Shown one piece after another: positions 4,597 through 39,309 of a stretch of 64,000 nt of DNA; position 1 is the stretch's first letter; every line of letters begins with the position of its first letter. Below the pieces are notes generated by a model that was not told where the DNA came from, ran no database searches, and saw only the letters and a list, made by a program, of their open reading frames with translations. Origin of the DNA: Strigamia acuminata. Lineage: Eukaryota > Arthropoda > Chilopoda > Geophilomorpha > Linotaeniidae. The stretch is taken from contig OX442314.1 of the NCBI GenBank assembly GCA_949358305.1, positions 34,653,608 through 34,717,607 of the forward strand, read 5' to 3'. Both the position numbers and the translations under genes were made by a program.

Positions 4597-4959
4597 TCAA
4601 ATTTTTACATTTTTAAAAATTAACAAAAACCATGTGTTTTTGTTAGCCTTTGATTGTTTAGTTTTCCTCGCAAACCACTTGCCGAACACTCGTTTAGTGC
4701 TTAATCCATCTGTTGACGTAAGGTATTGAATTAGCGGTGTACTTTCAACGTGGTAAAAAAAGAACGGGATGCACACCAGGATGAAACATACGAGCAGGAG
4801 GAGGAACTCTTTTTTTTTATGGATTTTGTTCGCCATGTCTCCAAGCTTCCTTTGTGACCCATCAGCTGCCCAGCATTTGCGACGTTCATCCATCTTGGCG
4901 ACAAGGCTGGGTAAGCTGCAATGAGATTCGTTTGTGAGCATATGCTGTTTCAGCGCCAC
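4597..4959 (-). CDS. Y-family ORF, copy Y1: short protein with one hydrophobic segment
   Basis: Unrecognised family, the best-preserved Y copy. The open frame is 120 codons, but its first codon is GTG; the first ATG is at 4941-4939. An in-frame TAA directly precedes the GTG, and a splice-acceptor-like TTCTAAG lies there in all copies, so translation may enter from an upstream exon. Conserved N-terminal features are TNESHC, a Pro-Ser-Leu stretch, a D/N-E-R-x-C motif and a basic AADGSQRK block. Then comes a hydrophobic run of about 20 residues (FLLLLVCFILVCIPFFF), consistent with a single membrane span, and a basic tail containing KWFARKT. It lies 332 bp downstream, in transcription order, of X copy a. 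Function unknown. Confidence 0.5.
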   Translation of the reverse strand: MALKQHMLTNESHCSLPSLVAKMDERRKCWAADGSQRKLGDMANKIHKKKEFLLLLVCFILVCIPFFFYHVESTPLIQYLTSTDGLSTKRVFGKWFARKTKQSKANKNTWFLLIFKNVKI

Positions 4960-5486
4960 TTAGAATAGAATTACGTGTGAATTTGTATGAACAAAGTAAA
5001 TTTATGCATTTACAAGTGAACTTTTAGCAACTGAAAATTGACGCGCCGAAAAGTACGACTTAACGCTGAGCTATAGTTCCATTTTACACTGAAGTAGTTC
5101 ACACGGAAAAAATGCCATTTGCAAGTTAGTTTGAATGTTTCTGACGTAAATTAAATTTTCAACACAAAAATTAAATTTTTGACACAATAATGATAAATTT
5201 CTTACACAAAAATTCCTATTTGCTATTTTAGACAATTAGCCTTTAGATTAATAAACCGTAATACTATAATAAAAATTCAAACTAAATCTGTTTACGATTT
5301 CTGTGACGTATTGCACAGACACTGCGAACTGCCTTCATCCCAATCGGCGAAAACAGTCTCGTTATTCTCGTGGTACCGCTCGTTGCATTTTCCGGGACAA
5401 ACTAAACATTGCATGAATTGCTGCCGTTGATCCCAGCTGTAGCCGGCCGACTCGCGAATTCTATGAGCGTCGTCTACAAAAATAAA

Positions 5487-5491
5487 TAACA
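5487..5491. repeat. Left target-site duplication of copia copy 2 (TAACA)
   Basis: TAACA abuts the 5' LTR at 5487-5491 and is repeated at 10266-10270 directly after the 3' LTR. Removing the element restores the intron of X copy a as seen in the uninterrupted X copies. Confidence 0.95.
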
Positions 5492-5706
5492 TGTTGTTTT
5501 ATTGAATGTTATATTCCTGTCCGCCAGGTGTCTTTACCACCTGTGCACCTGTATTTGGCACTGACCAATCAGTGCCCTGTTTTGTATTTAGTGCTCCGCG
5601 CACTTTTAAACATCTGTTTTAGATTAAAACCATCACTGTTAATATTTCACCAAAAAACCACGCGTCTCCATTTTTATGCCTCCAACATATTAGAACAAAA
5701 ACTACA
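5492..5706 (+). repeat. 5' LTR of copia copy 2
   Basis: 215 bp, begins TGTTG and ends CTACA. No clear TATA box or AATAAA signal was recognised within it. Base-for-base identical to 10051-10265 as far as I can read. Confidence 0.97.
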
Positions 5707-5736
5707 GGTTATGGGCCCAGCACGCTTCCACTGCGC
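5707..5736 (+). promoter_or_regulatory. Primer-binding site complementary to the 5' half of initiator tRNA-Met
   Basis: Thirty bases starting at the first base after the LTR are the exact complement of the D-arm-to-anticodon-stem part (about nt 10-39) of metazoan initiator tRNA-Met as I know it; the core is GGTTATGGGCCCAGCACGC. Drosophila copia is established to prime from a 5' tRNA-iMet fragment cut in the anticodon loop. Complementarity ends at TTAA (5737). Confidence 0.9.
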
Positions 5737-5827
5737 TTAAAAATCATCAAGTTTTGTACCGGAACATTCGAGGAAGTTAAAAACGAATTTAACACGAACA
5801 TTCCACAAGAAACAGAACTAAGAAACG

Positions 5828-8800
5828 ATGGCGAACGGCGGCGGAAATTCAGCTCGAATCGAGGCGTTGGGAAAGGAAAACTTCGACACATGGAAGATCC
5901 AGATGGAAGCAATTTTGGATCAACGGGACCTACTCGTGCACGCGGAAGGTACGTCGAAACGACCAGAGACCATTGAAGGCAACGCGAAACGTATGAAGGA
6001 GATCGAGACGTGGGAGAAAAGTGATCGAACAGCCAAAAATGACATTTTGCTAAACATAAAGCAATCTGAACTTCGAATGGCCAAAAATTGCAGCACCGCA
6101 AATGAATTGTGGAGGAAGTTGCATAGTGTGTACCAATCGAAAGGACCGGCAAGAAAAATCACGTTGTTAAAACGACTCGCGACACACAAGATGGCGGACG
6201 GAGAAAACGTGGAGAGTCACCTAAAAGAATTCTTCGAACTAGTAGACAAATTGCTAGACATGGATTTTAAAATGCCCGAAGATTTCACAACGATTCTACT
6301 GCTACTGAGTTTGCCAAATTCCTACGACAACTTTCGATGCGCAATAGAATCCCAAGATAAATTGCCATCGCTGGAAGTTTTGGAGGGAAAAATCAAAGAC
6401 GAGTCGATCGCCCGCGGAAAAGGAAAAGAAGACGTGTCGGACGCCATGATGGCCAGAAAAACGTTCCAAAAACGTAAGCAACCAAAGAAATACGGCGACG
6501 AAAATTCGAATTCGACCGAGAAGCCAGTTTTCAAATACAAGTGTCACGGTTGCGGAAAAATTGGCCACAAAATCGCCGATTGCCGAAGTAAAAGCAAGAA
6601 GGAAAGCGCATCAAGAGCCGAGAAATCCAAGTACGAATTATTTTTCTGCGAGCAAATCGAGACAGCGCTGATAAGCGAGACGTCACGACCGAAAAATTGG
6701 TGTTTGGACAGCGGCGCCAGCTCCCACATGTGCTCGAACGATTCAACATTTTCGACGATCGAATTCCTGAAAAACCAAAAACTGAATTTGGCCAGCAAAG
6801 CGAGTACAAAAATCGACGGAAAAGGAACCGCGAAAATTGTCGTCAACACCGGGAACGGAAATGTGAAGCTGGATTTGGCGGAAACTCTTTTGGTGCGAGA
6901 TCTACGAACGAATTTGATGTCGGTCGGGAAGATCACAGAACGGGGACACAAGGTGATTTTCGATGATAAGTCAGCAGAAGTGATAAATCCGAAGGGAGAA
7001 ATCGTATTCACCGCCGAAAAAAGGAACGGACTGTATTACATCGTCGACGAGACCGAGGATGCTGCGACTGCAGCGGAAATCGAAGTCGGAACCGGATCAA
7101 AACCTGCAAAACCCGCAAGTACGAAAATACAAGAATGGCACAAAAGACTTGGGCACCTGAACGAGTCAAGTCTGAAAATACTAAACGAAAAGGCGGACGG
7201 AATGAATTTGGAAAAGGACGCCAAGCTGCCAACTTGTGAAACTTGCATCGAGGGGAAGCACGCAAGTACGAAATTTCCTGACTCCACGTCAAAAAGCGAA
7301 AAACTGCTGGAACTTGTACACTCGGACGTTTGCGGACCAATGCCAACAAAGTCCATGAACGGATCAAGATACTTCGTGACCTTCACCGACGACAAATCGA
7401 GGTGGTGCAAGGTGTATTTTCTGAAGCACAAAAGCGAAGTTTTCGAGGCATTCAAGTCATTTAAAACGTTTTGCGAGAGGGAAACTGGTTGCGCACTAAA
7501 AGTTTTACGATCGGACAACGGGAAGGAATATGTAAATAAGAAATTCGACGCATATTTACAAGAAAACGGCATAAAGCGCCAAACCAGCGTCGAACGAACC
7601 CCGGAACAAAATGGCGTCTCGGAAAGAATGAATAGAACTTTGATCGAGATGGCACGATGCATGTTACTGCAAGCAAAATTGCCTAACTCATATTGGGCGG
7701 AAGCAATCAACACTGCATGCCACATCCGAAATAAATGCCCGACTAGAAGTTTGGAAAATGAAATCCCGCATCAAGTCTGGACCGGAAGAAAACCGAATGT
7801 CGACTATTTTCGAGTTTTTGGAAGCAGAGTCTTCGCGTTGGACAAGAAACCGAACAAGGGGAAGTTCGAACCGAAGTCAAAAGAATGTATTCTCATCGGA
7901 TATTGGGACGGATCGAAGGCGTATCGCTTGTGGTCAAAAAGCGAAAACAAAATTATAAAAAGTCGCGATGTGAAATTTGTCGAAAAATCGGAAAATGAAA
8001 CGAATGAAGAATGTGAAGAAAACGATAATAACAATAATTTTAATGACATTCTCACCGATTGCAGAACAGATCAAATCGAGAATGGAACCGAAATTTCCGA
8101 GGACGAAGTCGAGAGCGCAGGCGAGAACGAGCCCGATAATGAGGACGAGAGAGAGACGCAACACGAAGAAGCCGAACCTCGTCAGAATGAAAACGCGCAA
8201 ATAATTCCACGACGATCCTCGAGAACGCCAAAACCTTACCCAAATCGAAATGGGGACCCACCCAGAAAGAAATACACCAGAAAGAATCCGACAACAACTA
8301 ATGAAGTTTTGGACGAAATTGCACAGATAGCAATTCTCGACGATCCAACGACAGCGGCCGAAGCTTTGAATGGAAACGACCCACAAGAATGGATGAAAGC
8401 GATGAAGGAAGAGTACGACGCTTTAATCGAAAACGAAACGTGGGAGGAGTGCGACCGACCAAAAAATAGAAACGTAATCGGATGTAGATGGGTCCTCCGC
8501 ACGAAATTTGAAGCAGACGGGTCAATCGAACGCAGAAAGGCCAGACTGGTCGCCAAAGGATATGCACAGCAGCCAGGCATCGATTACTTTGAAACCTACG
8601 CGCCCGTCGCACGACCGGGATCAATTCGAATGATGATGGCAATCGCAGCCGAGTTGGGATTGACCGTACACCAAATGGACGCGATAACGGCATATTTGAA
8701 CGGCGAAATCGAAGAGGAAATTTTTATGGAATTCCCCGAATATTTGGAATTTATTGCTGGAATAAAAATCAAGAAAGGAAAAGTCTGCCGGATGAAAAAG

Positions 8801-9928
8801 GCGTTATACGGATTGAAGCAGTCGGGTCGCCAGTGGTACAAAAAACTGGACGAGAAGTTGCAAAAGCACGGACTGAAGCCAACAAACGCAGACCCATGCG
8901 TGTATTACCAAATGAATGGAGAAGTCATCACGCTCGTCGCAATCTACGTGGATGATTTTATCATCGCAACGAACTGCAAAAGAAACTTGGAGAAATTAAA
9001 ATCGAACCTGAAGAGCGAGTTCAAAATGAAGGATTTAGGACAAATTCACTACTGCTTGGGAATCGAGTTTAAACAGGACGAAAAGACGAAATCAATCACG
9101 ATGGCGCAGAAAAAATACGTTAAGGACATACTGAATCGTTTCGGAATGCAAGACTGCTCGAAAAACACAACTCCACTCGACGCAAATCAGAAATTGCAGA
9201 AAAACAAGAAAAAGGAGGATGGGACCGACGAAGAGCTACTGGATCCAGAGAAGTTCCCGTACCAAAGTTTAATCGGATCACTCATGTACCTCGCCGTTTG
9301 CACTCGACCCGATATTTCCTACACCGTCAGCGCATTAAGTCAATATAATACGTGCTTCACCGGAACTCATTGGACAGCAGCAAAACGCGTCCTAAGATAT
9401 TTGAAGCACTCATCGAATCTCGGGCTAAAATTCGAAAAGACCGGAAAAGACTTAGTCGGCTACACGGATGCAGATTGGGGAGCAAACTTGGACGACCGTC
9501 GCTCGTACACCGGCTACTGCTTTAAACTCGCGAACGCGACAATATGCTGGGAAGCAAGAAAGCAGAAGACCGTCGCAACCTCGTCGACCGAAGCAGAATA
9601 TATGGCGTTGGCCGACGCGTCAAAAGAAGCAATCTACTTGCGAAACTTCCTAGACGAAATTAAATACATCAACAAGAAGAAAGAAACGACCCTCATTTAT
9701 AGCGATAATCAGGGGGCACACAAATTGGTGCGAAACCCAATTTTTCATTCCAGAACCAAGCACATCGACATTCGCCACCATTTTGTTCGAGAAACATGTG
9801 AGCGGGGAGATATCGACATAGAATTCCTGGAGAGTGAGAAGATGGTCGCCGATGTGTTGACCAAGGGGCTTTTTAAGCCAAAACACGAAGAATTGATCGC
9901 CCAATTTGGATTGAAGGAAATTGTTTAA
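5828..9928 (+). CDS. gag-pol: copia-type Gag-Pol polyprotein, full length (1366 aa)
   Basis: Starts at the ATG in AACGATGGCG, 91 bp after the primer site, and ends at TAA. Residue map: Gag with a DUF4219/UBN2-like region about 1-200; CCHC zinc knuckle 239-252 (C239, C242, H247, C252); protease Asp294 in LDSGAS; HHCC zinc-binding region H438, H443, C470, C473; integrase catalytic triad D500, D563, E599 with 35 residues between the last two; acidic linker about 725-800; reverse transcriptase from about 881 with YVDD at 1040-1043; RNase H with D1214, E1255/E1257 and D1293. Integrase before RT defines Ty1/copia (Pseudoviridae). No frameshift separates Gag from Pol, so Gag excess, if needed, must come from splicing or processing. 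All catalytic residues are present, so the element is potentially active. Confidence 0.97.
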   Translation: MANGGGNSARIEALGKENFDTWKIQMEAILDQRDLLVHAEGTSKRPETIEGNAKRMKEIETWEKSDRTAKNDILLNIKQSELRMAKNCSTANELWRKLHSVYQSKGPARKITLLKRLATHKMADGENVESHLKEFFELVDKLLDMDFKMPEDFTTILLLLSLPNSYDNFRCAIESQDKLPSLEVLEGKIKDESIARGKGKEDVSDAMMARKTFQKRKQPKKYGDENSNSTEKPVFKYKCHGCGKIGHKIADCRSKSKKESASRAEKSKYELFFCEQIETALISETSRPKNWCLDSGASSHMCSNDSTFSTIEFLKNQKLNLASKASTKIDGKGTAKIVVNTGNGNVKLDLAETLLVRDLRTNLMSVGKITERGHKVIFDDKSAEVINPKGEIVFTAEKRNGLYYIVDETEDAATAAEIEVGTGSKPAKPASTKIQEWHKRLGHLNESSLKILNEKADGMNLEKDAKLPTCETCIEGKHASTKFPDSTSKSEKLLELVHSDVCGPMPTKSMNGSRYFVTFTDDKSRWCKVYFLKHKSEVFEAFKSFKTFCERETGCALKVLRSDNGKEYVNKKFDAYLQENGIKRQTSVERTPEQNGVSERMNRTLIEMARCMLLQAKLPNSYWAEAINTACHIRNKCPTRSLENEIPHQVWTGRKPNVDYFRVFGSRVFALDKKPNKGKFEPKSKECILIGYWDGSKAYRLWSKSENKIIKSRDVKFVEKSENETNEECEENDNNNNFNDILTDCRTDQIENGTEISEDEVESAGENEPDNEDERETQHEEAEPRQNENAQIIPRRSSRTPKPYPNRNGDPPRKKYTRKNPTTTNEVLDEIAQIAILDDPTTAAEALNGNDPQEWMKAMKEEYDALIENETWEECDRPKNRNVIGCRWVLRTKFEADGSIERRKARLVAKGYAQQPGIDYFETYAPVARPGSIRMMMAIAAELGLTVHQMDAITAYLNGEIEEEIFMEFPEYLEFIAGIKIKKGKVCRMKKALYGLKQSGRQWYKKLDEKLQKHGLKPTNADPCVYYQMNGEVITLVAIYVDDFIIATNCKRNLEKLKSNLKSEFKMKDLGQIHYCLGIEFKQDEKTKSITMAQKKYVKDILNRFGMQDCSKNTTPLDANQKLQKNKKKEDGTDEELLDPEKFPYQSLIGSLMYLAVCTRPDISYTVSALSQYNTCFTGTHWTAAKRVLRYLKHSSNLGLKFEKTGKDLVGYTDADWGANLDDRRSYTGYCFKLANATICWEARKQKTVATSSTEAEYMALADASKEAIYLRNFLDEIKYINKKKETTLIYSDNQGAHKLVRNPIFHSRTKHIDIRHHFVRETCERGDIDIEFLESEKMVADVLTKGLFKPKHEELIAQFGLKEIV

Positions 9929-10040
9929 GAAATATTGTTTTTAATATTTTGAATTGTTTGTGAATGAATACTTTAATGTTTAAATGTCTAAATTGCTTAA
10001 GAAAAATGTTTTGAATTTTGAAATGTAGGAATATTGCCAT

Positions 10041-10050
10041 TCAGGGGAAG
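10041..10050 (+). promoter_or_regulatory. Polypurine tract of copia copy 2
   Basis: AGGGGAAG immediately before the 3' LTR, the expected plus-strand priming site. The same sequence precedes the 3' LTR of copy 1. Confidence 0.85.
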
Positions 10051-10265
10051 TGTTGTTTTATTGAATGTTATATTCCTGTCCGCCAGGTGTCTTTACCACC
10101 TGTGCACCTGTATTTGGCACTGACCAATCAGTGCCCTGTTTTGTATTTAGTGCTCCGCGCACTTTTAAACATCTGTTTTAGATTAAAACCATCACTGTTA
10201 ATATTTCACCAAAAAACCACGCGTCTCCATTTTTATGCCTCCAACATATTAGAACAAAAACTACA
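10051..10265 (+). repeat. 3' LTR of copia copy 2
   Basis: 215 bp, TG...CA, identical to the 5' LTR by reading; followed by TSD TAACA (10266-10270). Confidence 0.97.
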
Positions 10266-10411
10266 TAACAAAATAACAAAAGCAAAAAATTTATGTATTT
10301 TAAATTTATTACCAATTTCCGATGACGACAATACGACCGTTTTCAAGTTTTGATCTTACAGGTCACGGCAGAAATAAGCAGTAAACAAAACAAACCCGGC
10401 GAGGAAAACAT

Positions 10412-10860
10412 GGCGTTTTCTCGGAAAATTCACCTGTTTAAATGTCACATATAGAATAGAAATCGCACGTGATGAAAATAATGGAGAAGATGAATGAGAA
10501 TAAACAATAAAACTGTACATTTTGCTGCAGTACTATTATACTGTATTATATATCTCATTTTTGATATTTCTTTATGCACTGGGAAGTGTCACTTTACAGT
10601 AAAGCTGGAAAATTGCTATTTTAAGCAAGAAAATTGTCATTTTAAGTAAGTAAACGCCATTTCAAGTAATAAAAGTCCCATTTCCGCTGATGAAAGTGCC
10701 ATTTCAAGCTATGAAAATGCCTTTTTTAACTATAAACATGCGGGTTAAGGAAGAATGTGCCACAAAAAAATGCCATTTTGAAAAAGAAAAGTGCCATTTT
10801 GAACAAGAAAAGTGACATTTTGAACAAGAAAAGTTGTGACGGTTATAAAACCGTATTTAC
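10412..10860. other. 5' flank of X copy a and degenerate GCCATTT repeats
   Basis: 10412-10600 is the conserved upstream segment of X genes (ATCGCACGTGATGA, an AATAAACAATAAAACTGTA block, then CTCATTTTTGATATT). 10600-10850 holds imperfect copies, about 20 bp apart, of a GCCATTTT-containing repeat. Confidence 0.6.
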
Positions 10861-11190
10861 TAATGTGCACACTAGATGGCGCTATTAAAATAACGCGTGT
10901 GATTTAAACGATGATACCGGTATAATTACTAATTTTGCTTAATTTCTGGATCCACGAAATAAAACATGACTTTTTAGGGTCAGAACAAATTTATTCAAAT
11001 TTCTTGGGGTTTACATTACTATATTCAAGGGAACAAAGGACATTTTAGCATGATTTATGACACTTTTGGTTATTTCCTGTTGCGCGTCACTCGTCATATT
11101 GCTCGAAAACTCTACTGAATGTTGGCTTCTCTGCACGCCCTTACTTTGTAGTTAAACGCCATTTTTAAAAATTAAAATCACTGTCTGACG
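10861..11190. other. Unassigned sequence without a gene
   Basis: Not shared with the other X-Y modules. Contains TAGATGGCGCTA near 10872 and a stretch ending about 11150, with no open frame I trust. Possibly an old insertion; no termini recognised. Confidence 0.3.
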
Positions 11191-11205
11191 CAAACGAATG
11201 AAATT

Positions 11206-11475
11206 ATATGCTATAAAAATGCCATTATATGCTATAAAAATGCCATTTTCTGCTATAAAAATGCCATTTTCTGCTATAAAAATGCCATTATCTGCTATAA
11301 AAATGCCATTTTCTGCTATAAAAATGCCATTTTCTGCTATAAAAATGCCATTTTCTGCTAGAAAAATGCCATTTTATGCTAGAAAAATGCCATTTTAGGC
11401 TAGAAAGAAAAATGCCATTTTATGCTAGAAAAATGCCATTTTATGCTAGAAAAATGCCATTTTATGCTAGAAAAG
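11206..11475. repeat. 21-bp minisatellite, GCTATAAAAATGCCATTTT type
   Basis: About 12-13 tandem units with the GCCATT core in each. Units drift from ...TATAAAAATG... to ...TAGAAAAATG... along the array. The 21-bp period leaves open frames on the plus strand, which I do not regard as coding. Confidence 0.9.
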
Positions 11476-11817
11476 TGTGATTATGGTACAAAAAGTGCCA
11501 TTTTTAAATATCAACTGGAATTTTAAACTCACCATACATGTCTTAATGGAATGGAAAATGCATTTATAATGCACAAAAGTGCACTCTGCACTCCTTCACA
11601 ATAGAAATAGTGGAAAACAAATGAAACAAACAATAAATCTTTGTGCATATAACATATTTTCATGTACGAGTAGGAGAAACAATACAATTGTTTGTACTTT
11701 TTACATTTTCTTCTTACATGAGAAATTTTGACATTTTAAACGAAAATAAACGAGACCAATTTTGATTTTGTTTTGTACTTTTTGTTTGCCATTTTAATAT
11801 CGCTTGTTATTCGCAAA

Positions 11818-12120
11818 CTATTTTACGAGCCATTTGACGAAGGGGACGCGTCGGTAACGTCGACATAAGTAATGCATAATTCTAAATTGCAATAGCATTA
11901 CCACTACCTCGAAGATCAAACGAAACAGGAAATTGTCGTGAATTGCAGCGAAAAATCTGGTTATAGGGGTCGACTTGGGTAAATGTCGCGTGGGGCCCAC
12001 GGCTGGTACTGTCCGTTTGCAGTGATCAGTTACACTTAGCAGGTCAACGCCCGTATCGGCTTGGCTGGATTGCCTATAACGGAATTAGGTTGTTAGCTGG
12101 TGCTGTTTTAGGGCCACTTG
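11818..12120 (-). pseudogene. Y-family copy Y2 (divergent, degraded 5' part)
   Basis: The 3' part is an open frame of about 60 codons with a hydrophobic middle and a basic end reading RRVPFVKWLVK before the stop, matching the C-termini in Y8. The 5' part (12000-12120) retains only the signature of the family start (plus strand TGCTGTTTTAGGGCCACTT) and has no usable ATG. Its partner is X-b, separated here by minisatellites and a BEL/Pao fossil. Confidence 0.5.
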
Positions 12121-12520
12121 GATAGAATTACGTGTGAATTTGTAATCAGAATAAAGACTATTCCGTGAAAACCTGCGTATTTTGTATTTTGTAAATTTAT
12201 TGCTTGTAATTGGATATTATTGTAAAATATTTTTTTGATTGGTGCATTGTACTCTTGACCGGAAGTATGTCTAAAATTCGTAACTTTTGACATGTATCAT
12301 ATGGTTTTTGACTCCAAAATTTGACTTTTACGAAAATCGCTAACGTGGAATTTGCTAAGGTGGAATTCAATTATCCAATTTACGATTTATGTACAAGTAA
12401 ATTCACATATTTATTGATGAAAATCTTTTAAATCGAAAAAAACATTTTATATCTAAAAGTAAATTTTTGAATTTACAAGTGAACTTTTAACAACTGAAAA
12501 CTGACTTGCCGAAAAGTACG
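12121..12520. other. Module spacer between Y2 and the next minisatellite
   Basis: AT-rich. Contains the conserved segment AATTACGTGTGAATTTG directly upstream of Y and AAGTGAACTTTTAACAACTG further on. No gene seen. Confidence 0.4.
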
Positions 12521-15330: not shown

Positions 15331-15332
15331 GT

Positions 15333-30300: not shown

Positions 30301-31586
30301 GCCCCCGGTGCCAAGCGTGCAGACCGCGAGATAAAGTGGCCAGAAACGCCATGTCTCTCGGACCCTACGCACCGTTTGACTGCTTAAGCATAGACTTGAT
30401 GGGCCCCAAGCCCACAACGGGAAACAAGAACATGTATATTCTCGTAATTATGGACGTGGCCACCCGATGGCCGGAGCTGTACGCCCTCGCGAAGCCCTCG
30501 GCTGAAAACATAGTCGAGTGCCTTTACGACGTGGCAATGCGATTTGGGTTTCCCAGAAAACTCATTTCGGATAACGGCCCCCAATTCCGATCGAGAATAT
30601 ATAAGGACTTCTGTAGAAAATTTAAAATGGATGCATCAAACACCTCCACGTATAATCCTCAGACAAACCCAGTCGAGAGATTAAATAAAGACATAAAATA
30701 TGCGCTGACAGTATTCACCGATATTCACAATCGATGGGACGAATACCTGCGAGAAATCGCTTTCAGCATTCGCTCAACCGTGTCAAGAACACGCGAATTC
30801 TCACCGGCGTACCTCAACTTCGCCCGCGAATTAAGGATGCCATGGGACCCACGCGTTGCCGAAGCTGTTAACGTATTAGACCCATCGAGCCCACACGAGT
30901 ACGTGTGCCGGTTGGAACAGACTATATCCGACACATACCAGCATATGATGGCGCATATTTTCAACATGAGAGAAAGAATCGCAGATAAAGAAGGCGATCT
31001 CGCTTTCGCGAACTTTAAAGTGAATGATCTAGTGTGGAAGGAGGCACACACGTTGTCCAATGCAGCGAGGGGCATCGCCGCAGGTTTAGCCGACAAGAGG
31101 GACGGTCCCTATGTAATTGTGGCCGAACACGGCGGCAACGCATACCAACTACGCCGCTTAGAGGACAACAAAAATTTTCAGTCGATACATGGCCGAGATT
31201 TAAGGCCATATCTGCCAGAGTTTCCCCAAGAAATCTGGCTGGAAGGTCAGACACACAGCGGCCAAGGGGGCACCGTGGTCGACACGTTCCAAAAAACAAA
31301 TGAAGCTGAAAATATAGCGGAGGACGAGGATGAATTCTTCGACGCCGAATCTCCGGCCGACGAGGCTCCAGCACAGCCGGAGCAAGCAATTTCGGAGAGG
31401 GAGGAAGCAGAAGAGAGTACTTCTGAAATGGAAAATAAAAAAATTAGTAATGAGAAAAATGCCAACACATCGGAGATGAACGAGCAAGTAGAGTCACGAT
31501 CTACGAGCACGTCGAAAATCAACCTTCGACCACGACGAAGCAATAATCCGTTCATTCGGGACGGCAAAGTCGTGGGGAAGAACTAA
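24342..31586 (+). CDS. gag-pol: Ty3/gypsy Gag-Pol polyprotein (2414 aa)
   Basis: Single frame from ATG (AAAATGTCAG) to TAA. N-terminus acidic/Pro-rich; about residues 235-415 form a long E/R/K coiled coil, unusually large for a gypsy Gag; Ser/Arg-rich region 420-620; Gag core (retrotrans_gag-like) about 650-780; CCHC knuckle C998, C1001, H1006, C1011; protease Asp1154 in LDSGAD; reverse transcriptase with YLDD 1499-1502; RNase H D1648, E1691, D1718; integrase zinc motif H1950, H1957, C1987, C1990; catalytic D2018, D2077, E2112 (34 residues between the last two, one fewer than usual, in PQTNPVER); GPY/F-like GPYVI near the C-terminus. RT before integrase defines Ty3/gypsy. No chromodomain or env recognised. 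All catalytic residues are present and no frameshift is seen, so it is probably functional. Confidence 0.96.
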   Translation: MSDKDEQSTSDTEQRMPEKGKRTSDYHLRSDGPVPEMSAKAKARANKRRAKAQKEEQAASLAALDGPERERVPLNMQPFEDTDPEAIENREEIRDVSPGRVSILMTEETNEAPKITVTVGTNPSPPTAQTSVEQTPRKNDGGTPITPRVTASPAVVSFEVSHLIRLTRQAAQLKAMIDIPVGTSVWESITLLTDAICAAQAPTPVARPAAETPMPQVTPSDTGGFAPDPNRTLHESREKAREEARQEATSRQRRLSAERRELWKEEEEREQRERRTTERTEKLVQKMREEREAKIRKEWNATVEGRHREAQEYEDQFQALVAQRKAEKLQMLREEAILQHQKWEEQHRERLREEEARKEKEQFLKEKEEWDRVRWTEEYKAKKQAIIDEQKRWEAENWEKETEKFQKEYEQGVSGRKKREENPKRKSEPPSGSDTDTGEDAAKPAKTAKRGKSQKRDGSVPKTKDRHPSKRSETGAAIDALLEKKNANKNRERPESEENRWHSFCENNDGGEPPPSEGSKQKKAGGETPPRGPRFHPQGDPSEPSDSSDDDHPSRPSTGRSQEGSDGHRSNRPNASDRSSRSSNPRSEEGNFQDSSGRHYTMSELGRALLNSFRREGIDLGHPGDEHNRAGERVKRKYGVRNEPSSEATGNIRWQHYIQTRFDGSWKAGDRFLDEVMRIKKATKATVADMLTHGLVELTTGSAREWYQGLKNPTWDDFLVRFDLRYGETPDEISNKLRGLRQAPGETLADYDARAKLLFARAPYEINPAGFTMIFYGGLSAHSQRILLDMRAPRTGDYQDVSNYLLTNTLEIEQRYYATLPPEEADAHEKRLQTSAERHKTSEKLMRPSEYLSGIMSLTEASFGRMLTPKAGSILPANPIAAPKKAPAATAMQVTSTDSTQMEKVEETTPLATAKEEEPASSDEEALNEHLENLSTGCDDQGPYLHHAHRALAITQFRAHLQATKARGALGGKRRFPTPFVPKKPGFTPTGDKSNIKCYSCGEYGHYSDKCEKTVKEKDIMQTMMKMMMELRTDLAKKLPSAGVAEINSASSAPAAEIKKKKYHTGPAGHALAEAQIKDRIQIVPKKEEKVTLTSMQVRTKPEVDMDWTDLPFNLEVEPQTLRVFHCNVTKAHCETLCMLPVEIENQKLFGLLDSGADRSFISEDIVKDLDIGKKVAQVNANVELLTANGYVKPKGVVRIMIDWTGGNLSHPFIVLPSHDKVFLLGMDIMAKLKIQPNPITRSWNWISPEGERSVPVVPQKLLDEAKDKEEYGRGLRKFVQDYDFAAFTLELQRSNVVDTLVEEAALRVNEASLLRRVLRKHERILTKTPGRTTEATHEIVLTTDKPIRVPYKGMNPQKRDIVTQMCQDMLDKGIVTQALGEYAMRIVLVMRPGSEPRLCIDYRPLNAITVIDPIQMPSIDSILRELSPFKWVTTMDLSKGYWQVELKPEDKLKTAFYSPIGRLMFNVMPFGLVNAPSTFQKLIESVLGDMLHDFVWAYLDDIIITSDTFEEHIDHIDRVVSRLAKAGLHIHPGKSKFCRKELAFLGYRIGVEGIAIDPEKVKAINGFPAPEDIKGVQRFMGMVNFFGRLLSGLAEVAAPITDLLRTDKEFEWTVQCEAAFSTIKQMLADVEKMPLPDLNRPFVLHTDASRIGLGAALLQTHVYNGISQEVPCMFISRKIQGAEKNYTATELECLAVIWAVRKFRDYLEYTNFEVQTDHQALSWLMKLKEPSGRLARWQLELMACDITITYRPGKYNHVADALSRAPASDPQGPDDDGEDDTHLLYCPTPRRIWRLRKANELPVMEPEDRTFCGFWTRTYQPAGTNDSTSEIQSPPPGETHKTLLRAFTAKIEEKTQYAPPTRREFVEHQAADTKCQIITQYLLNGEFPEGMTNPHRRKQFVKEATSYLIDDELLVKYHPTFQDDLSGAGNSVKVVVPASLHTRLLWLMHGHPLASHSGVARTLYRVKQLFFWPGARQKITKFIRHCPRCQACRPRDKVARNAMSLGPYAPFDCLSIDLMGPKPTTGNKNMYILVIMDVATRWPELYALAKPSAENIVECLYDVAMRFGFPRKLISDNGPQFRSRIYKDFCRKFKMDASNTSTYNPQTNPVERLNKDIKYALTVFTDIHNRWDEYLREIAFSIRSTVSRTREFSPAYLNFARELRMPWDPRVAEAVNVLDPSSPHEYVCRLEQTISDTYQHMMAHIFNMRERIADKEGDLAFANFKVNDLVWKEAHTLSNAARGIAAGLADKRDGPYVIVAEHGGNAYQLRRLEDNKNFQSIHGRDLRPYLPEFPQEIWLEGQTHSGQGGTVVDTFQKTNEAENIAEDEDEFFDAESPADEAPAQPEQAISEREEAEESTSEMENKKISNEKNANTSEMNEQVESRSTSTSKINLRPRRSNNPFIRDGKVVGKN

Positions 31587-31966
31587 AAATAAAAGAAAAT
31601 GTGATAACATGGAGCGGAGGCCTTGTAAAATAAAAAGATTTACTTACGAGAGCTGCTGCACATGTTGAGACGCGAAAATTTGGCTAAGTCCAAACTTCGC
31701 AACGAATTGTCGCAGTCACCACTAACAGACGAGAAGTTATGACGTAGCGGGCGACCACGTGACAACGAAACCACGCGGTCGACCCCGTAGCGTCATTGCC
31801 AGCACGGCGGATCTCGCAAAATACGAGACGCGTTCGAGACCCACAATTCTCAGCGTCGATAGGCCCAGTTTCCGACTGTTTTTAACACGACGAGACGTGT
31901 TTTTGCTTCTCCCCCAAAGAGAAAGACAAAGACCTCTCAAACAAAACTTCATTTTCCTAAATTGAA
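31587..31966 (+). other. Noncoding 3' region with a strong splice acceptor
   Basis: No credible long frame. TTTTTGCTTCTCCCCCAAAG ends at 31919, an excellent polypyrimidine-AG acceptor 47 nt before the ATG at 31967. Together with GTAAGT in the 5' leader (23846) it could make a subgenomic RNA that skips gag-pol. Confidence 0.5.
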
Positions 31967-32840
31967 ATGGCCGATCGACGCAACCCACGATTAGAGCCGA
32001 GCGCATCGTCGAGAGACGAGAGCGACGGCCTAATCGTAAATGCAGAAGAAGATGAGAATTGGGACGAACAACCGCCGTTGCAGGTAAATTAGTGTGATTT
32101 CCCCAGAGAAATCACATAATTCTTTGAATCTGTTGCATCCAACCCAGATTGGAGCGTGACTTGTGACTGATATATTTCTTTCTGTTTTATTGTTGATTTA
32201 AGGCTGGCTAAAAACCCGAGAGTGGACCCAGATTCACCTCGGAGTCAAGGCCGCCAAAAAACTAGAACAAAGGAAGTGTTCGCGGAATGGCGTCGTGGCA
32301 AACCAAAACCAAAACTAAAGGTTTTTCTTTCTTTTAAATTTAAACATCGTAATAAATTAAAATACGATTAGAGTTAAAATAAAAAAGTTTAACGTAAGAA
32401 ATTAAAATTTAACGATCGGTTTTGCCTGCGACCCCTTCCAAAAAAGCGGATCACCTGAGTTCAAAAGTAGTGTTGGATCAGCGCTACGACGGCGGAGATC
32501 ATCGCAGAACTGCGAAACAAGAAAATAAGACCGACGGCCGCAACAAAAGAAAGGAGTTGCTGCCACCGTCGATCTTGAGCATATTTCTGATCCCCATCGT
32601 TAACTGGGATTTATTATATTAATCTTGTGATCTAAAATTATTCAGGTCGACCCGCTAGAATCGTGGGACGCCCTGCCTCCGACGGCGTCAACCGCCAACA
32701 ACATCTTTCGCGGAGCCCTGCCGATTTACCTGCGGCAGGCCTATCCTGCAGAGGAGTGCTGCCGGCTCTTCGCAGAGGAGAGCGATAAAAATGAGATCGC
32801 TCCGATCCGAGATCGAAGCTGGAGGAGGGACGTGTGGTGA
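31967..32840 (+). CDS. Candidate spliced accessory ORF of the gypsy element
   Basis: Exon A: ATG at 31967, 39 codons, acidic, ending CAG followed by donor GTAAAT (32084). Exon C: after the acceptor ATTATTCAG (32645), 64 open codons in phase 0 to a TGA at 32838-32840, just inside the 3' LTR. A joined to C gives about 103 residues. A middle exon B (32203-32320, between TTGATTTAAG and a weak donor AAAG/GTTTTT) does not fit the first frame. It does fit a second, basic frame starting at ATG 32040: 44 nt of exon A plus 118 nt of B is 54 codons, again entering C in phase 0. So two N-termini could share one C-terminus. No homology recognised; inferred only from signals and phase arithmetic. Confidence 0.4.
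32820..32832 (+). promoter_or_regulatory. Polypurine tract of the gypsy element
   Basis: TGGAGGAGGGACG directly precedes the 3' LTR (TGTGG at 32833). Interrupted by one C, but the only purine run at the expected place. Confidence 0.7.
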
Positions 32841-33652
32841 CCCAGTTGGATAAGTGTCCCCCCAGGGCGGATGCTTGTCCTCTGAGTCACTGTGATTGAA
32901 GAGTCGTTCCCCCCCGAGTTGGCTCCACCTCCCCATGGCAGGTGTGTGCCCCGAGGGGGAGGAAGCGGCTGATGGTCAGCCCCCATTGGTTGATCGCCGG
33001 CCCTTCACCCCACTGCATAAAAGGCTGTGTTTCCCGCCTAAAGTCAGAACTTACACAAACGACACCAAGAACACAGCAACTACCTCACCGTCAGGCCAAC
33101 TTCAACTACAAGTTAGGATTGATCGAGGATCGCTGAGTAAAGTGCAAACTGTAACTCTCACGAAGTCACTTGCGAGCTATTCCTGCGAAAGCACGAGAAT
33201 AGCCCTTGTGAAATCACCCAGAATAATCGCCCAGACGATTATTCGCCGAAGTAAGTGTCCGAGTGCTTTGTAGGGAACCCCAGAGTTCCTAGACGAGGCC
33301 TCTGCGACGCTAAACAAACCCTAGACAACAGGCACGGATAGAAGACTCGAAAGAGCATTCCACCGCGTCCGTGAAGACGAATCCGTGACGAATTAACGAC
33401 AACTCGAGACGCCGCCTTTGTTCCGCCGACCACGCGGAATCGACGACGCCATCTTGAGAAATCCTTTGTTCGACGCTGACCACGTCGACTCTAGAATTAT
33501 TACTGAGTGTATTTTAAAGGCATAAAGCCTGGTGAATAAATTACCTGTTTATTTACATACATTTGGTATTCATTTGGGTATTTACATAATTGATCACAGG
33601 TAAAGTATTACACGTTAGCGCTATTTAAACCTATACCAAGTAGGACGCGACA
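32833..33652 (+). repeat. 3' LTR of the gypsy element
   Basis: 820 bp, apparently identical to 23428-24247. AATAAA at 33535-33540. Followed by TSD ATTT (33653-33656). Confidence 0.96.
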
Positions 33653-33658
33653 ATTTGT

Positions 33659-34005
33659 TTACAATTTCTGTGTCGAATTGCAGACACAATGCAAACTGCC
33701 TTCATCCCAATCGGCAAAAGCCGTCTCGTTATTCTCGGAAAAACGCTCGTTGCATTTTACCGGACATAAATAACACTGCATGAACAGCTGCCGTTTATGC
33801 CAGTCGTAGCCGGCCGACTCGCGAACTCGATGAGCTTCATCTACAAAAATAAGTATAAAAATAAAAAAAGCAAAAAATTTATATACCGTATTTTAAATTT
33901 ATTACTAATTTCCGATGCCGACAATCCGACCGTTTTCAAGTCGTGATGGTAACAGGACACGGCAGAAATGAGCAGTACACAGAATAAAACGGGCGAGGAA
34001 ACCAT
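33659..34005 (-). CDS. X-family gene copy e: secreted cysteine-rich protein, two exons, intact
   Basis: Exon 1 34005-33906 (100 nt), intron 33905-33841 (65 nt, GTAAT...TGTAG), exon 2 33840-33659 (182 nt, TAA). The joined frame is open for 93 codons. No contiguous ORF of useful length exists here, because the intron is not a multiple of three, so ORF scanning misses it. Signal-peptide-like start with SAVSC, cysteines C-x2-C-x3-C-x21-C-x-C, FADWDE. Junction residues differ from the others (NEAHR rather than DDAHR). The gypsy target duplication ends at 33656, two bases past the stop codon, so the coding region is untouched but the whole natural 3' UTR has been replaced by the retrotransposon in antisense. 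Confidence 0.75.
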
Positions 34006-34199
34006 GATGTTTTTTCGGAAAATTGGTCGTTAAAATGTCGGGTATAGAATAGAAATCGCACGTGATGACAACAATAGAGAAAAATGAATGAAAATAAACA
34101 ATAAAACTGTATATTTTGTGTGTGTAAGAATGCTGCACTATTTTTTCTCATTTTTGATATTTCTTACTTAAATTCTGCACTGAAAAAGTGCTATATTCT

Positions 34200-35120
34200 A
34201 GTAGACAGTGGATTCTTAAGCTGGAAAATTGCCATTTAACCTGGAAAACTTCCATTTTGAGCAAGAAAATTGCAATTTTATTCAAAATACAATCACACAA
34301 ATAAGATCGATTTTTGCTAATAAAAAGTCAACCGTTAATCCGATCGAAATGTTATTAGAACCATCATTTTCAGCGGCAAAATCTACACAGGAAACTTTGT
34401 TTAAACATTTTAATCGGTCCTTTTTTCAAAATATTGGGTTTTGTTCTTGGTCGAATCCAAATTTTTTCAAAAATTTCCTATTTGATCGCCTGCTAAGATC
34501 GCCCGAATCGGTACGTTTTCTCGATCGAAATAAAAAATAAAAAAAATACATGCTTGTGCGCAATTGTCCACTCTTCAAAACGAGCTTGGTTTCATAATTT
34601 TTGGACCTCATTACGACATAGAAAACATAAAAAAACGAATCGCTACAAACATTTTCAAATTTCCTCCTGAATTTCCCATTCGATCGCCGACTTTGGTGGA
34701 TCGCAATGCTACTTTTTTCCGACCAAATAAAAATAATAAATATACAAGGTCATGCAGATTTGGATTTCCAATCGATTGGGTTTGGTTCCAGAATTTTTGG
34801 ACCTCATTTCCATATAGTAAACATAAACGAAGATTTCATGGCTCACGGGATCCGCCAAGTGGCGCTAGTACAATGTTACAACTTCCGGTGCGCGGACGGA
34901 AGTAGTATTATTTGGACGGCTAAGTGTGTACAAAATCGTGCTTATTAATTCAACCGGAGGTCGGAAATTTGTGGAAAGATCCTAGGATACTAATACAGGT
35001 ATGCTGAATTTATTGCAGTTATCCGTTTGTCTCCACCTGCTATAAATTTTGAGATATGGATGCGTACGGACAGACAGACAGACAGACAGAACCGTTTCAT
35101 GAGACTCTCTAAACATCAGG
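34200..35120. other. Unclassified AT-rich insert unique to this module
   Basis: From about 34270 to 35120 the sequence matches no other module. It contains two related segments (GGACCTCATT at 34610 and 34798 with similar surroundings) and a GACA tetranucleotide run at about 35071-35091. The block may be an old transposon, but I found no termini or coding domain. Confidence 0.4.
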
Positions 35121-35134
35121 TTTAAAAGTCTAAA

Positions 35135-35420
35135 AAGTGCCATTTTGAACAAGAAAAGTGCCATTTTAAGCAAGAAAAGTGCCATTTTAAGCAAGAAAAG
35201 TGCCATTTTAAGCAAGAAAATTGCTATTTTAAGAAGAAAAGTGCCATTTAAAGCAATAAAAGTTCCATTTTAAGCAAGAAAAGTGCCATTTTAAGTGGTG
35301 AAGTGCCATTTCAAGCAATTAAAGGCCATTTCACCCAAGAAAGTTGTCATATCATGCAAGAAGGTTGCCATTTCATGATAGAAAAGTGACATTACAAGCT
35401 AGTAAAGTGTTATTACAGCA
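35135..35420. repeat. GCCATTTT minisatellite block
   Basis: Units AAGTGCCATTTTAAGCAAGA (20-21 bp), followed by the same series of diverged units as at 17540-17760. Confidence 0.85.
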
Positions 35421-35686
35421 AAAGCTGTGTGATTTTAGTAGGAAAGTGCTAATTTATCATCAAAAATGCATTAAAAGTGTCATTTTCAACTTAAGTGTGT
35501 TTTCTTACAGCAAAAAATGTATTTATAAAGTTAAAAAGTGCATTTTCACCTTGAAACAAGTGAATTTCAGAGTGCAAAAGTGCCGTGGTAGAATAAAAAA
35601 ATACATTTCATACTCAGAAAACTGCATTTTTTCACAATAGAAATGGGGAAAACGAAATGAGACGAACAATAAACCTGTGTATACCG

Positions 35687-35717
<31 letters not shown>

Positions 35718-35849
35718 TATGTAGGAAAAACAATTAATGTTTCAAATTTTTACATTTTCAACAATTAACAAAAACCATGTGTTTTTTTGGCCTTTTATTG
35801 TCTAGTTTTCCTCGCAAACCACTTGCCGAACACTAGTTTAGTGGCCAAA

Positions 35850-36326
35850 TCACCAAATCATCGGTTGAAGTCCCATCTGTGGAAGTCCCATCTGTGGAAG
35901 TCCCATCTGTGGAAGTCCCATCTGTTGAAGTCCCATCTGTGGAAGTCCCATCTGTGGAAGTCCCATCTGTTGAAGTCCCATCTGTGGAAGTCCCATCTGT
36001 GGAAGTCCCATCTGTGGAAGTCCCATCTGTGGAAGTCCCATCTGTTGAAGTCTCATCTGTTGAAATCCCATCTGTTGAAATCCCATCTGTTGAAATCCCA
36101 CCTGTTGAAGTCCTATGCGGTATATTATCCACATAAAGAATAACAACACCAGAGTGGTACATATGATGTGGAGCTGGTTTTCTTCATGGATTTTGTTCGC
36201 CAAGTCTCCAGGTTTCCTTTGTGACCCATCAGCTGCCCACCATTTGCAGCGTTCATTCATCTTGGCGACAAGGCTGGGTAGGCTGCAATGAGATTCGTTT
36301 GTGAGCAAATGCTGTTTCAGCGCCAC
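35850..36326 (-). CDS. Y-family ORF, copy Y7, extended by an in-frame minisatellite
   Basis: Open frame of 158 codons from a GTG (first ATG 36260). The N-terminal half is canonical Y (TNESHC, NERCKWWAADGSQRK, GDLANKIHEE) with a hydrophobic segment (ICTTLVLLFFMWIIYRI). From there to the stop it is the 15-bp repeat read as five-residue units (QMGLP/QMGLQ). The repeat is open in other frames too, so expression of this tail is doubtful. The basic tail of Y1 has been displaced. Partner of X-f, 356 bp away. Confidence 0.45.
   Translation of the reverse strand: MALKQHLLTNESHCSLPSLVAKMNERCKWWAADGSQRKPGDLANKIHEENQLHIICTTLVLLFFMWIIYRIGLQQVGFQQMGFQQMGFQQMRLQQMGLPQMGLPQMGLPQMGLPQMGLQQMGLPQMGLPQMGLQQMGLPQMGLPQMGLPQMGLQPMIW
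35866..36115. repeat. 15-bp minisatellite, GAAGTCCCATCTGTG
   Basis: About 17 units of exactly 15 bp with few variants (GGAAG/TGAAG; the last units TGAAATCCC). A single ancestral unit, CCATCTGTTGA, is present at the corresponding place in Y1 (4707-4717). So it expanded locally from Y sequence. Confidence 0.95.
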
Positions 36327-36681
36327 TTAGAATAGAATTACGTGTGAATTTGTATACACAAAGTAAATTTATGCATTCACAAGTGAACTCTTAGTAACTG
36401 AAAATTGACGTGCCGAAAAGTGCGATTTAATGCTGAGCTAGTGCCATTTTACAATGACGTAGTTCACACGGAAAAAATGCCATTTGCAAGTCAGACAGTA
36501 GTTAGTTTGAATGTTTCTGACTTAAATTAAACTTGTAACACAAAAATTAAATTTTCGACACAAAAATTGCTATTTGCTATTTTATATATTAATTTGGTAT
36601 TAATCCGGCACTGTTTTCGGAGTTTAATTAGCATTTGGATTAATAAACCGTAATAATAAAATAAATCCAAACTTAATCTGT

Positions 36682-37023
36682 TTACAATTTGTGTGTCGTA
36701 TTGCACACACAATGCGAACCATCTTCATCCCAATCAGCAAAAACCTCCTCGTTATTCTCGTCGTACCGCTCGTTGCATTTTCCGCGACAAAAAAAACATT
36801 GCATGAATTGATGCCGTTCATTCCAGCCGTAGCCGGCAAACTCGCGAGTTCTGTGAGCGGCGTCTACAAAAATAAATAACAAAATAACAAAAGCAAACAA
36901 TTTTTATCTTTTAAATTTATTATCAATTTCCGATGACGAGAATATGACTGTTTTGAAGTCTTGATCGTGACAGGACACGGCAGAAAAGAACAATAAACAA
37001 AACGAAACGGGCGAGGAAAACAT
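36682..37023 (-). pseudogene. X-family copy f, splice donor mutated
   Basis: Exon 1 (37023-36924) and exon 2 (36863-36682) are both open with all hallmarks (SAVSC, C-x2-C-x3-C-x21-C-x-C, FADWDE). But the donor dinucleotide is AT instead of GT (plus strand TATC at 36921-36924). Reading through the 60-nt intron meets a stop after a few codons. Unless a cryptic donor is used, no full product is made. Confidence 0.65.
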
Positions 37024-37269
37024 GATGTTTTCTCAAAAAATTCGCCCATTTAATCGTCGCATATAGAATAAAAATCGCACGTGATGAAAACAATGGAGAA
37101 AGGTGAATGGAAATAAACAATAAAACTGTATATTGTGTGTATAAGAACTGCTGGACTACCATTTTTCATTTTTAATATTTCTTCCTTAAATTCACCACTA
37201 ACATGTTTTACATTGCCATACGGAATTTAAGCTGGAAAATTTCTATTTTCAGCAAGAAAATTCAAACTT

Positions 37270-37660
37270 CAAGTAAGTTAAGCGCCATTTAAAGTTAAAA
37301 CAAAGCCATTTCAAGCTATAAAAAAGCCATTTTTAGCTATAAAAAAGCCATTTTTAGTTATAAAAATGCCATTTCATGCAAGAAAAGTATCATTGTGTTA
37401 CAATAAGTGCCATTTTTAAATACCTGGAAATTTAAACTCACCACAGTGTATATTTACCATATAAAAAAATGCATTTTCAATCGCAATGCTAAAAAGTGCA
37501 TTTCCACCGTTCAAAAGTGTCGTGCTAGAATGGAAAATACATTTAAAACGCACAAAAGTGCACTCCTTCACAATAGAAATAGTGGGAAAGAAATGAAACA
37601 AACAACAAATCTTTGTGCATATAACATTTTCATGTAGAAAAACCAATACAATTGTTTGTG
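37270..37660. other. Module spacer with GCCATTT units and conserved Y 3' flank
   Basis: Six or so AAAAAGCCATTTTTAGCTAT units (37300-37380), then the recurring GTGCACTCCTTCACAATAGAAA segment also seen at 11580 and 22670. Confidence 0.6.
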
Positions 37661-37775
37661 CGTTTTCCATTTTCTTCTTACATGAAAAATTTTGACATTT
37701 TAAACGAAAATAAACAAAATCAATTTTGGTTTTGTTTAGTCCTTTTTGTTTGTCATTTTAATATCGCTTGACCTT

Positions 37776-38380
37776 CCTAAACAATTTTCCGAGCCATTTG
37801 ATGACGGGCTCGCGTCGTAGGTATCGAAAGAGGTAACAAACAAATTTAATTAACAATAGCAACAAGCTGAAGAGCACCAGAAAGACGGACATCGATTCAC
37901 ACGGGGAGACACTCTCGCGAGTTACAAAGAAAACTCCGAATTTAGTGATCGAGTTGTGGTACTGTCTGTTCGCAGTGATCGGATCGCAGTTCAACGCTCG
38001 TATCGGCTTGGCTGGATTGCAAACTATTTTGCGAGCCATTTGACGAAGGGGTGGCGTCCGAAGCGTCGGAAGTCTCGACGGAGGTTACAAAAAAGTTTAA
38101 TATGCAATGCCCATTTCAGTATGTCGGCCATCATGCCAATCAGGTTCAATTTGCCGTTTCTTGTAGTGAAAAATGCGGATTTATTGCTCGACTTGCCGAT
38201 AGTTATTAAAAAATCTCCGAAATTTCTGATCGCGACGCGTAAATGTCGCCCGAGGTCCACTAGTGATTCTGTCCATTCGTAGTGATCAGCTTGCACTTCA
38301 AAGTTCGTATCGGCTTGGCTGGATTTCCTATAACGGTATTAGTTTGTTAGCGAGTGCTGCTTTAGTACCACTTGGATGGA
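37776..38380 (-). pseudogene. Y-family copy Y8 with an internal tandem duplication
   Basis: Two diverged copies of a ~270 bp segment: 38296-38024 ends CNLRRDF...HPFVKWLAK before a TAG, and 38039-37758 contains a hydrophobic run (SVFLVLFSLLLLLIKFVCYLF) and ends near REPVIKWLGK. Both carry the flank GTATCGGCTTGGCTGGATT. Upstream (38380-38300) the family start is recognisable as VVLKQHSLTN, then a stop. The ATG of the second ORF overlaps the stop region of the first in another frame. Partner of X-g. Confidence 0.5.
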
Positions 38381-38418
38381 ATTACGTGTGAATTTAAAAA
38401 CAGAATAAAGACTATTTG

Positions 38419-38900
38419 GACACAAAAATCAAATTTTTGACACAAAAATTAAATTTTTGACACAAAAATTAAATTTTTGACACAAAAATTAAATTTTTGA
38501 CACAAAAATTAAATTTTTGACACAAAAATCAAATTTTTGACACAAAAATCAAATTTTTGACACAAAAATCAAATTTTTGACACAAAAATCAAATTTTTGA
38601 CACAAAAATCAAATTTTTGACACAAAAATCAAATTTTTGACACAAAAATCAAATTTTTGACACAAAAATCAAATTTTTGACACAAAAATCAAATTTTTGA
38701 CACAAAAATCAAATTTTTGACACAAAAATCAAATTTTTGACACAAAAATCAAATTTTTGACACAAAAATCAAATTTTTGACACAAAAATCAAATTTTTGA
38801 CACAAAAATCAAATTTTTGACACAAAAATCAAATTTTTGACACAAAAATCAAATTTTTGACACAAAAATCAAATTTTTGAAACAAAAATCAAATTTTTGG
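38419..38900. repeat. Homogeneous palindromic 20-bp minisatellite, ~24 units
   Basis: Unit GACACAAAAATCAAATTTTT. The first few units (after the first) have the ancestral TTAAA centre (perfect dyad); all later units have TCAAA, so one variant unit spread by slippage or unequal exchange. Longest of the arrays that occupy this site 3' of X. Confidence 0.97.
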
Positions 38901-38965
38901 ATTAATAAAAAATTAATTTGGATTAATAAACCGTAATAATAAAAAAAAATTCAAACTAAATCTGT

Positions 38966-39309
38966 TTACAATTTCTTTGTCGTATGGCACAGACACTGTG
39001 AACCGCCTTCATCCCAATCGGCGAAAACATCCTCGTTGGTGTCCTGCTCGATGCATTTTCGGCGACAGAGAAAACATTGCATGAATTGCTGCCCTTCGTC
39101 CCAGACGTGTCCGGCCAACTCGCGAGTTCTATGAGCGTCGTCTACAAAAATAAAATAAATAACAAAATAACAAAAGCAAAAAAATTATATCTCTTAAATT
39201 TATTACTAATTTCCGATGACGACAATTCAACCGTGTTTATGAGTTGATCGTAAGAGGAGGACACGGCAGAAATGAGCAGTAAACCAAACAAAACGGGCGA
39301 GGAAAACAT
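38966..39309 (-). CDS. X-family gene copy g: secreted cysteine-rich protein, two exons, intact
   Basis: Exon 1 39309-39207 (103 nt), intron 39206-39142 (65 nt), exon 2 39141-38966 (176 nt, TAA). Joined, 92 residues. Exon 1 is one codon longer and exon 2 two codons shorter than in other copies, both keeping frame, as expected of a gene under constraint. Signal-peptide-like segment MFSSPVLFGLLLISAVSS lacks both of its usual cysteines. The domain has C-x2-C-x3-C-x19-C-x-C and FADWDE. It is the last module before the satellite. Confidence 0.75.

Follow-up and report, generated by a model that had tools for sequence, protein, structure and literature searches.

The window considered here is a stretch of 64,000 nucleotides from chromosome 1 of Strigamia acuminata (assembly GCA_949358305.1, contig OX442314.1; C1:34,653,608-34,717,607, with positions inside it marked by the prefix w), which holds part of a tandem array of two alternating open frames, a cysteine (Cys)-rich X with a hydrophobic leader and a Y with a hydrophobic segment. 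On the simplest reading, X and Y are probably exons of one three-exon gene for one membrane protein, exons 1 and 2 forming X and exon 3 forming Y. The fuller account, in which this one gene encodes a small membrane protein and arose from a secreted four-Cys ancestor that gained an anchor exon and was then amplified, is considered likely. The exon pattern, the phase, the paralogs, and the confinement of exon 3 to the array can be read directly in the DNA; splicing itself, membrane topology, disulfides, and the order of events are inferred.

Splice Signals, Reading Frame, and 3′ Ends

Exon 1 terminates at phase 1 with GTAATAAAT; exon 2 opens after TAG or CAG. X ends in NN|GTAA, a phase-2 donor, in 25/27 copies, in which the two preceding codon bases vary (TT, AT, TC) while the GT is constant, and the apparent stop codon of X is one that any phase-2 GTAA donor yields. 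A profile of the Y start gave 32 hits, 29 of which have an acceptor-like site (CATTGCAG in 15, TTATAG in 10, TTGTAG in 3, and TTCTAG in 1); these 29 are used for the exon-3 counts given here, and the 3 hits with no recognisable acceptor were excluded. CTAAC occurs within 40 nt upstream of the Y acceptor in 19/29, no conserved start codon of Y's own was found among the Y-type starts, and the Y frame that continues X in phase 2 is the longest of the three in 25/29 (the exceptions being 34832835, 34831846, 34773633, and 34764461). The polyadenylation-type motif AATAAA is depleted within 250 nt past the X stop (3/27 vs. 12.8 ± 2.4 in shuffles) and is found within 250 nt past the exon-3 stop in 14/28 (vs. 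9.7 ± 2.4 in shuffles), one of the 29 exon-3 sequences having no stop within 420 bases.

The first-pass annotation had read the unit as two genes, for example a secreted ligand and a membrane partner. X does carry a stop codon and the Y frames are open, but that stop lies inside the donor, Y opens at an acceptor-like site with no conserved start and in phase with X, AATAAA is scarce after X, and paralogs described below consist of X only, so that two separate genes, a secreted X and a membrane Y, are very improbable.

One gene might also give a dual output, comparable to membrane and secreted immunoglobulin, with a secreted X produced when intron 2 is kept and translation stops at the donor TAA, and a membrane form produced when intron 2 is spliced. 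Each phase-2 GTAA donor indeed leaves a stop immediately after X, and two candidate last exons are present in 5/25 units, which makes alternative 3′ ends possible. The stop, however, is a forced by-product of the phase-2 GTAA, and with AATAAA depleted past X there is no clear sign of an early 3′ end that works efficiently; such a dual output is considered unlikely. For the three-exon gene, CACGTG lies 55–66 bases upstream of the ATG in 26/27 exon-1 copies, a position that fits one promoter per unit. At C1:34834406 and 34834567, two consecutive exon-1 copies stand ahead of a single exon 2, with CACGTG at the upstream one only.

Extent and Copies of the Array

In the window, tblastn found eight X exon-2 sites, all on the minus strand and starting at approximately w39142, 36864, 33841, 21313, 19095, 16874, 14072, and 5474. 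Y-type sequence lies downstream of all eight (w38327, 36282, 23118, 20533, 18388, a remnant near w16547, 12073, and 4915), the pair at w16874/w16547 being a remnant only. The tandem X-Y unit proposed from the first inspection is real in this respect, and its duplication as a whole, with shared minisatellites, is likewise confirmed, the minisatellites of 20–21 bp being common to the units in both spacers and introns. The count of eight holds for the window; the array itself is far larger, running head to tail over 332 kb of chromosome 1 (C1:34,502,000-34,834,600). Queries of exons 1 and 2 and of Y in tblastn placed at least 27 X exon-2 sites in it, at C1:34,502,574-34,834,244, and every one lies on the minus strand. 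This number is a lower bound, the upper array (34.72–34.87 Mb) having been read in part, and two more Y-type matches, C1:34794278 and 34821112, lie outside the stretches read. A genome-wide protein search recovered 26 of the 27 X sites (25 whole and 1 split into two rows) and missed the remnant.

Within the window, all three exons look undamaged in 4/8 copies (those whose exon 1 starts at w39309, w34005, w19254, and w14231). Of the other four, the copy at w21313 carries an in-frame stop in its exon 2, exon 1 is frameshifted at w10411 and has an altered donor at w37023, and the last copy is a remnant. The features of the window are as follows.

w39207..39309, minus strand: copy A exon 1, hydrophobic leader
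w38970..39141, minus strand: copy A exon 2, Cys domain
w38024..38327, minus strand: copy A exon 3 (intact, beta type), without the usual linker Cys; hydrophobicity 1.35, under the 1.6 threshold
w36924..37023, minus strand: copy B exon 1; sequence differs where the usual donor GTAATAAAT would lie, and no such donor was found
w36686..36863, minus strand: copy B exon 2
w35850..36282, minus strand: copy B exon 3, alpha type
w33906..34005, minus strand: copy C exon 1
w33663..33840, minus strand: copy C exon 2
w23428..~33652, plus strand: gypsy-type element inside copy C intron 2 (between X and Y)
w22923..23118, minus strand: copy C exon 3, alpha type
w21374..21473, minus strand: copy D exon 1
w21135..21312, minus strand: copy D exon 2, in-frame stop, pseudogene
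w20317..20533, minus strand: copy D exon 3, alpha type
w19155..19254, minus strand: copy E exon 1
w18917..19094, minus strand: copy E exon 2
w18148..18388, minus strand: copy E exon 3, alpha type
w16816..16873, minus strand: copy F exon-2 remnant; Y remnant near w16475-16547
w14132..14231, minus strand: copy G exon 1
w13894..14071, minus strand: copy G exon 2
w11818..12073, minus strand: copy G exon 3, beta type, C-terminus ..FVKWLVK
w10313..10411, minus strand: copy H exon 1, frameshifted
w5484..10266 (approximate, by eye), plus strand: copia-type element inside copy H intron 1 (between exons 1 and 2)
w5296..5473, minus strand: copy H exon 2, donor TC|GTAAAC
w4597..4915, minus strand: copy H exon 3, alpha type

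In copy B, exon 3 contains an in-frame 15-bp minisatellite of 17 units (w35859-36113), which lengthens the predicted tail. The gypsy-type element has a single open frame of 2419 aa, and its repeats, starting at w23428 and w32833, show no difference in the first 820 bases compared, which indicates a recent insertion. Two copia-type elements lie near each other, one at w5484-10266 (with a 1368-aa open frame) and one at w1-4375 (with no such long frame within the window). A long inverted-repeat element with many GGTAC-type motifs was seen by eye between copies F and G (~w15300-16040), and the array is adjoined at w39700-64000 by a satellite-like, GC-rich block in which open frames recur on both strands. 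Elsewhere on chromosome 1, 11 matches to an array minisatellite, many of them ~4.45 kb apart, mark another regular array at C1:46.876-46.951 Mb. In the mitochondrial contig, where cox1 is read through 11 TGA codons, inspection by eye shows ribosomal RNA-like sequence next to cox1 and on the other strand from it, which is a rearranged order.

Predicted Protein and Likeness to Known Peptide Families

Where it is open, the predicted X+Y product has ~140–195 residues and consists, in spliced order, of a hydrophobic leader (judged by eye), a small Cys domain, a linker that contains a single Cys, a hydrophobic segment, and a tail that is short and mostly basic; the leader and Cys of X and the hydrophobic segment of Y are in line with the initial description. 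Exon 2 encodes a ~60-residue domain with five Cys (CxxCxxxC...CxC), all five being present in 24/25 complete in-frame copies and four in 1/25, and exon 3 contributes one Cys at residues 11–20 in 24/29, bringing the total to six, an even number. The extra Cys in the predicted exon-2 helix may pair with the exon-3 Cys. A 19-residue stretch with a mean Kyte-Doolittle value of at least 1.6 is found in 19/29 exon-3 sequences, five others reach 1.2–1.6, and five have none; the net charge past the hydrophobic segment is positive in 16/19, and exon 3 ends in a [KR]W[LFI] motif in 9/29. Y falls into three strongly different classes, alpha (LPS.. or LQSSLAA.., with a Cys near residue 13–19), beta (LQSSQAD..), and gamma (LQSGQ..). 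The fold predicted for exon 2 comprises a helix (14–33) and two strands (39–46 and 51–58) with a mean predicted local distance difference test (pLDDT) score of 86, and the same elements are predicted for the paralog on C10 (pLDDT 79). On this account every unit would have a promoter of its own, and its transcript, after two splicing events, would encode a surface protein whose head is compact and held by disulfides. The product would be a small type-I membrane protein with an ectodomain like that of the cysteine-stabilised-helix (CSH) peptides.

The CxxxC and CxC are invariant in 27/27 aligned exon-2 sequences (C26, C30, C52, and C54 in alignment numbering). As in CSH and CS-alpha-beta peptides, two Cys three residues apart lie in the predicted helix (C3xxxC4), which is followed in the array exon 2 by a two-stranded hairpin bearing the CxC (C8xC9) in its last strand, and the dispersed paralogs have four Cys, as in the four-Cys CSH sequences described from myxobacteria. 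The Cys spacing and the predicted helix-hairpin thus resemble those of the CSH (defensin-like) peptides, the disulfides being predicted. The third bridge of CS-alpha-beta, C2-C6, has no counterpart, with no Cys between the helix and the CxC in the aligned exon-2 sequences, and a GXC gamma-core is absent from these rows, the residues ahead of the CxC usually reading S/L-Q/H-C. Unlike CSH and CS-alpha-beta peptides, the array proteins have an added Cys, which sits within the helix, and a predicted membrane anchor.

Pfam gave nothing above its gathering score, with no match for three fused proteins and only chance-level matches for eight X-type proteins (best E value 0.022), and no sequence relative was found by Pfam or PDB sequence. 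The structural matches are weak, AtLURE1.2 (5y9w_C; 35/37 residues, 2.1 Å) being the sole row of low root-mean-square deviation in the comparison. As far as searched, the lineage restriction supposed at first is borne out, as is the fast evolution. The SLPTX families of centipede venom are small Cys-rich peptides with a leader, and defensin-like and four-Cys families are among those listed (PMC4379518, PMC6878950). Compared by description, the array proteins are also small and Cys-rich with a leader; unlike SLPTX, they carry a predicted membrane anchor. By comparison, some members of the plant DUF26 group, an unrelated domain from a different kingdom, became membrane-linked. This Cys-rich domain is described as having arisen in secreted proteins and later diversified (PMC6368629).

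Selection and In-Frame Changes

The ratio of nonsynonymous to synonymous differences (pN/pS) was taken over 22 of the 27 exon-1 entries, those from copies in which exons 1-2 are open throughout. Five entries were dropped: 34834567, which is a second exon 1 within one gene, 34664018, whose exon 1 is frameshifted, and three with no usual donor (34690630), a frame length error (34750848), and a stop (34675080). Pooled pN/pS was 0.47 in the leader (bootstrap 0.24–0.88), 0.96 in the rest of exon 1 (0.56–1.84), and 0.74 in exon 2 (0.52–1.02). In the numbering of this analysis, R7, G11, W14, C26, C30, W46, C53, and C55 of exon 2 are unchanging, and positions 6, 13, 28, 41, and 50 are highly variable. 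Insertions and deletions (indels) are in frame in 56% of cases in exon 1 and 53% in exon 2, compared with 23% in the upstream flank and 25% past the donor.

These values bear on a dead, satellite-like duplication, which the first-pass annotation had proposed to recognise by X exons evolving near neutrality, by X and Y being confined to this locus, and by a lack of transcripts. The array comes through this check only in part: X is present at three other loci; the exon-2 value is below 1 with an interval that extends to 1.02, and 4/8 window copies are broken, as a dead array would allow. On the other side stand the 22 entries from copies open across exons 1-2 (one of the five dropped being a second exon 1 of the same gene), the higher share of in-frame indels in X exons than in flanks, and the invariance of key exon-2 residues, which together make a dead duplication highly unlikely. 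X is conserved and Y fast-diverging, as first described.

For exon 3, pooled pN/pS is 1.02 (bootstrap 0.89–1.15), near neutral, the in-frame indels in a loose comparison amount to 31% vs. 28–29% in the flanks, and several exon-3 sequences are truncated. Together with the in-frame constraint on X, these values speak for another reading, in which X alone would be the functional product, as a family of secreted peptides, and exon 3 would be a by-product in decay, or a 3′ untranslated region, that unit duplication has carried along. Against this, the phase is correct in 25/29 across three divergent classes, the Cys recurs in 24/29 and the KW-type tail end in 9/29, and indels among 26 close pairs are a multiple of three in 57/95 cases in exon 3, 21/80 in intron 2, and 27/54 downstream. 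A by-product is therefore judged quite unlikely, and exon 3 is retained as part of the three-exon gene, its coding support coming, with near-neutral pN/pS and mixed indel tests, from phase and pattern more than from constraint.

Dispersed Paralogs and the Origin of Exon 3

Outside the array, the genome-wide protein search placed X at three loci with E < 0.001 (C8:10,106,096, C10:314,980, and C11:5,499,558), with one further row on C4 at E 1. Each of these three dispersed single-copy paralogs begins with a hydrophobic leader exon, which a phase-1 intron separates from a Cys exon with four Cys only, and with the X domain alone they look secreted. In the C8 paralog, the stop, at the end of exon 2, lies in TAATAAATAAATAAA with AATAAA at the stop; the C10 paralog also stops at the end of exon 2, with AATAAA 74 bases past the stop; and the C11 paralog has a tiny added exon (..PPEG|DAK), a 4-residue extension, with AATAAA at +63 bases. 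Exon-3 queries of beta, gamma, and alpha type gave no matches outside C1:34.62-34.83 Mb at E < 0.05, and exon 3 looks like an array-specific gain for this reason.

In a FastTree analysis of ~21–23 array proteins and the three dispersed proteins, array copy 34619970 groups with the dispersed paralogs (support 0.93). Alone in the array, this copy is without the extra Cys: it has four Cys, AATAAA 5 bases past the stop, and no assigned exon 3, while GTAAAC is kept. Since the paralogs are X-only and Y-type exons were found in the array alone, it is probable that a secreted peptide acquired an anchor exon where its stop codon lay and that amplification followed. The family would have started as a secreted four-Cys peptide, which the three paralogs still resemble; in the array ancestor, a Cys would have been added in the helix, a splice donor would have arisen across the former stop codon, and a new last exon would have supplied the membrane anchor and the sixth Cys. 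These gains are taken to have come in the order Cys, donor, exon. Head-to-tail amplification, together with minisatellites, would then have led to at least 27 copies, with X under moderate constraint and exon 3 turning over quickly into alpha, beta, and gamma forms.

Proposed Role and Significance

Unit duplication, perhaps helped by the 20–21 bp minisatellites, would multiply variants, exon 3 having the fastest turnover. From the speed of change, the number of copies, and the defensin-like head, the role is guessed to be variable cell-surface recognition or tethered defence, gamete or self recognition being equally possible. A more elaborate proposal, offered tentatively and rather doubtful as a whole, is that a secreted defensin-like peptide of one centipede lineage gained a last exon at its stop and became an amplified, quickly diversifying membrane-tethered CSH family with a new disulfide between the helix Cys and the exon-3 Cys. 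Alternation among the alpha, beta, and gamma last exons, together with intron retention, would change the product between anchors, tails, or a secreted form, giving a cell-surface recognition or defence repertoire not described before in the literature searched.

The genome paper of Strigamia maritima reports that no homologues of antimicrobial peptides were found in that species, the shortness and divergence of such genes being a possible reason (PMC4244043), and the array family is a candidate for these. An apparent two-gene module in an array can, as a caution, be one gene whose phase-2 GTAA donor mimics a stop codon. If the account given here is true, the locus would be a compact natural example of a secreted peptide becoming a membrane protein by acquiring a single exon, and one genome would contain, next to each other, paralogs with no anchor, a basal copy that lacks exon 3, and numerous derived copies.
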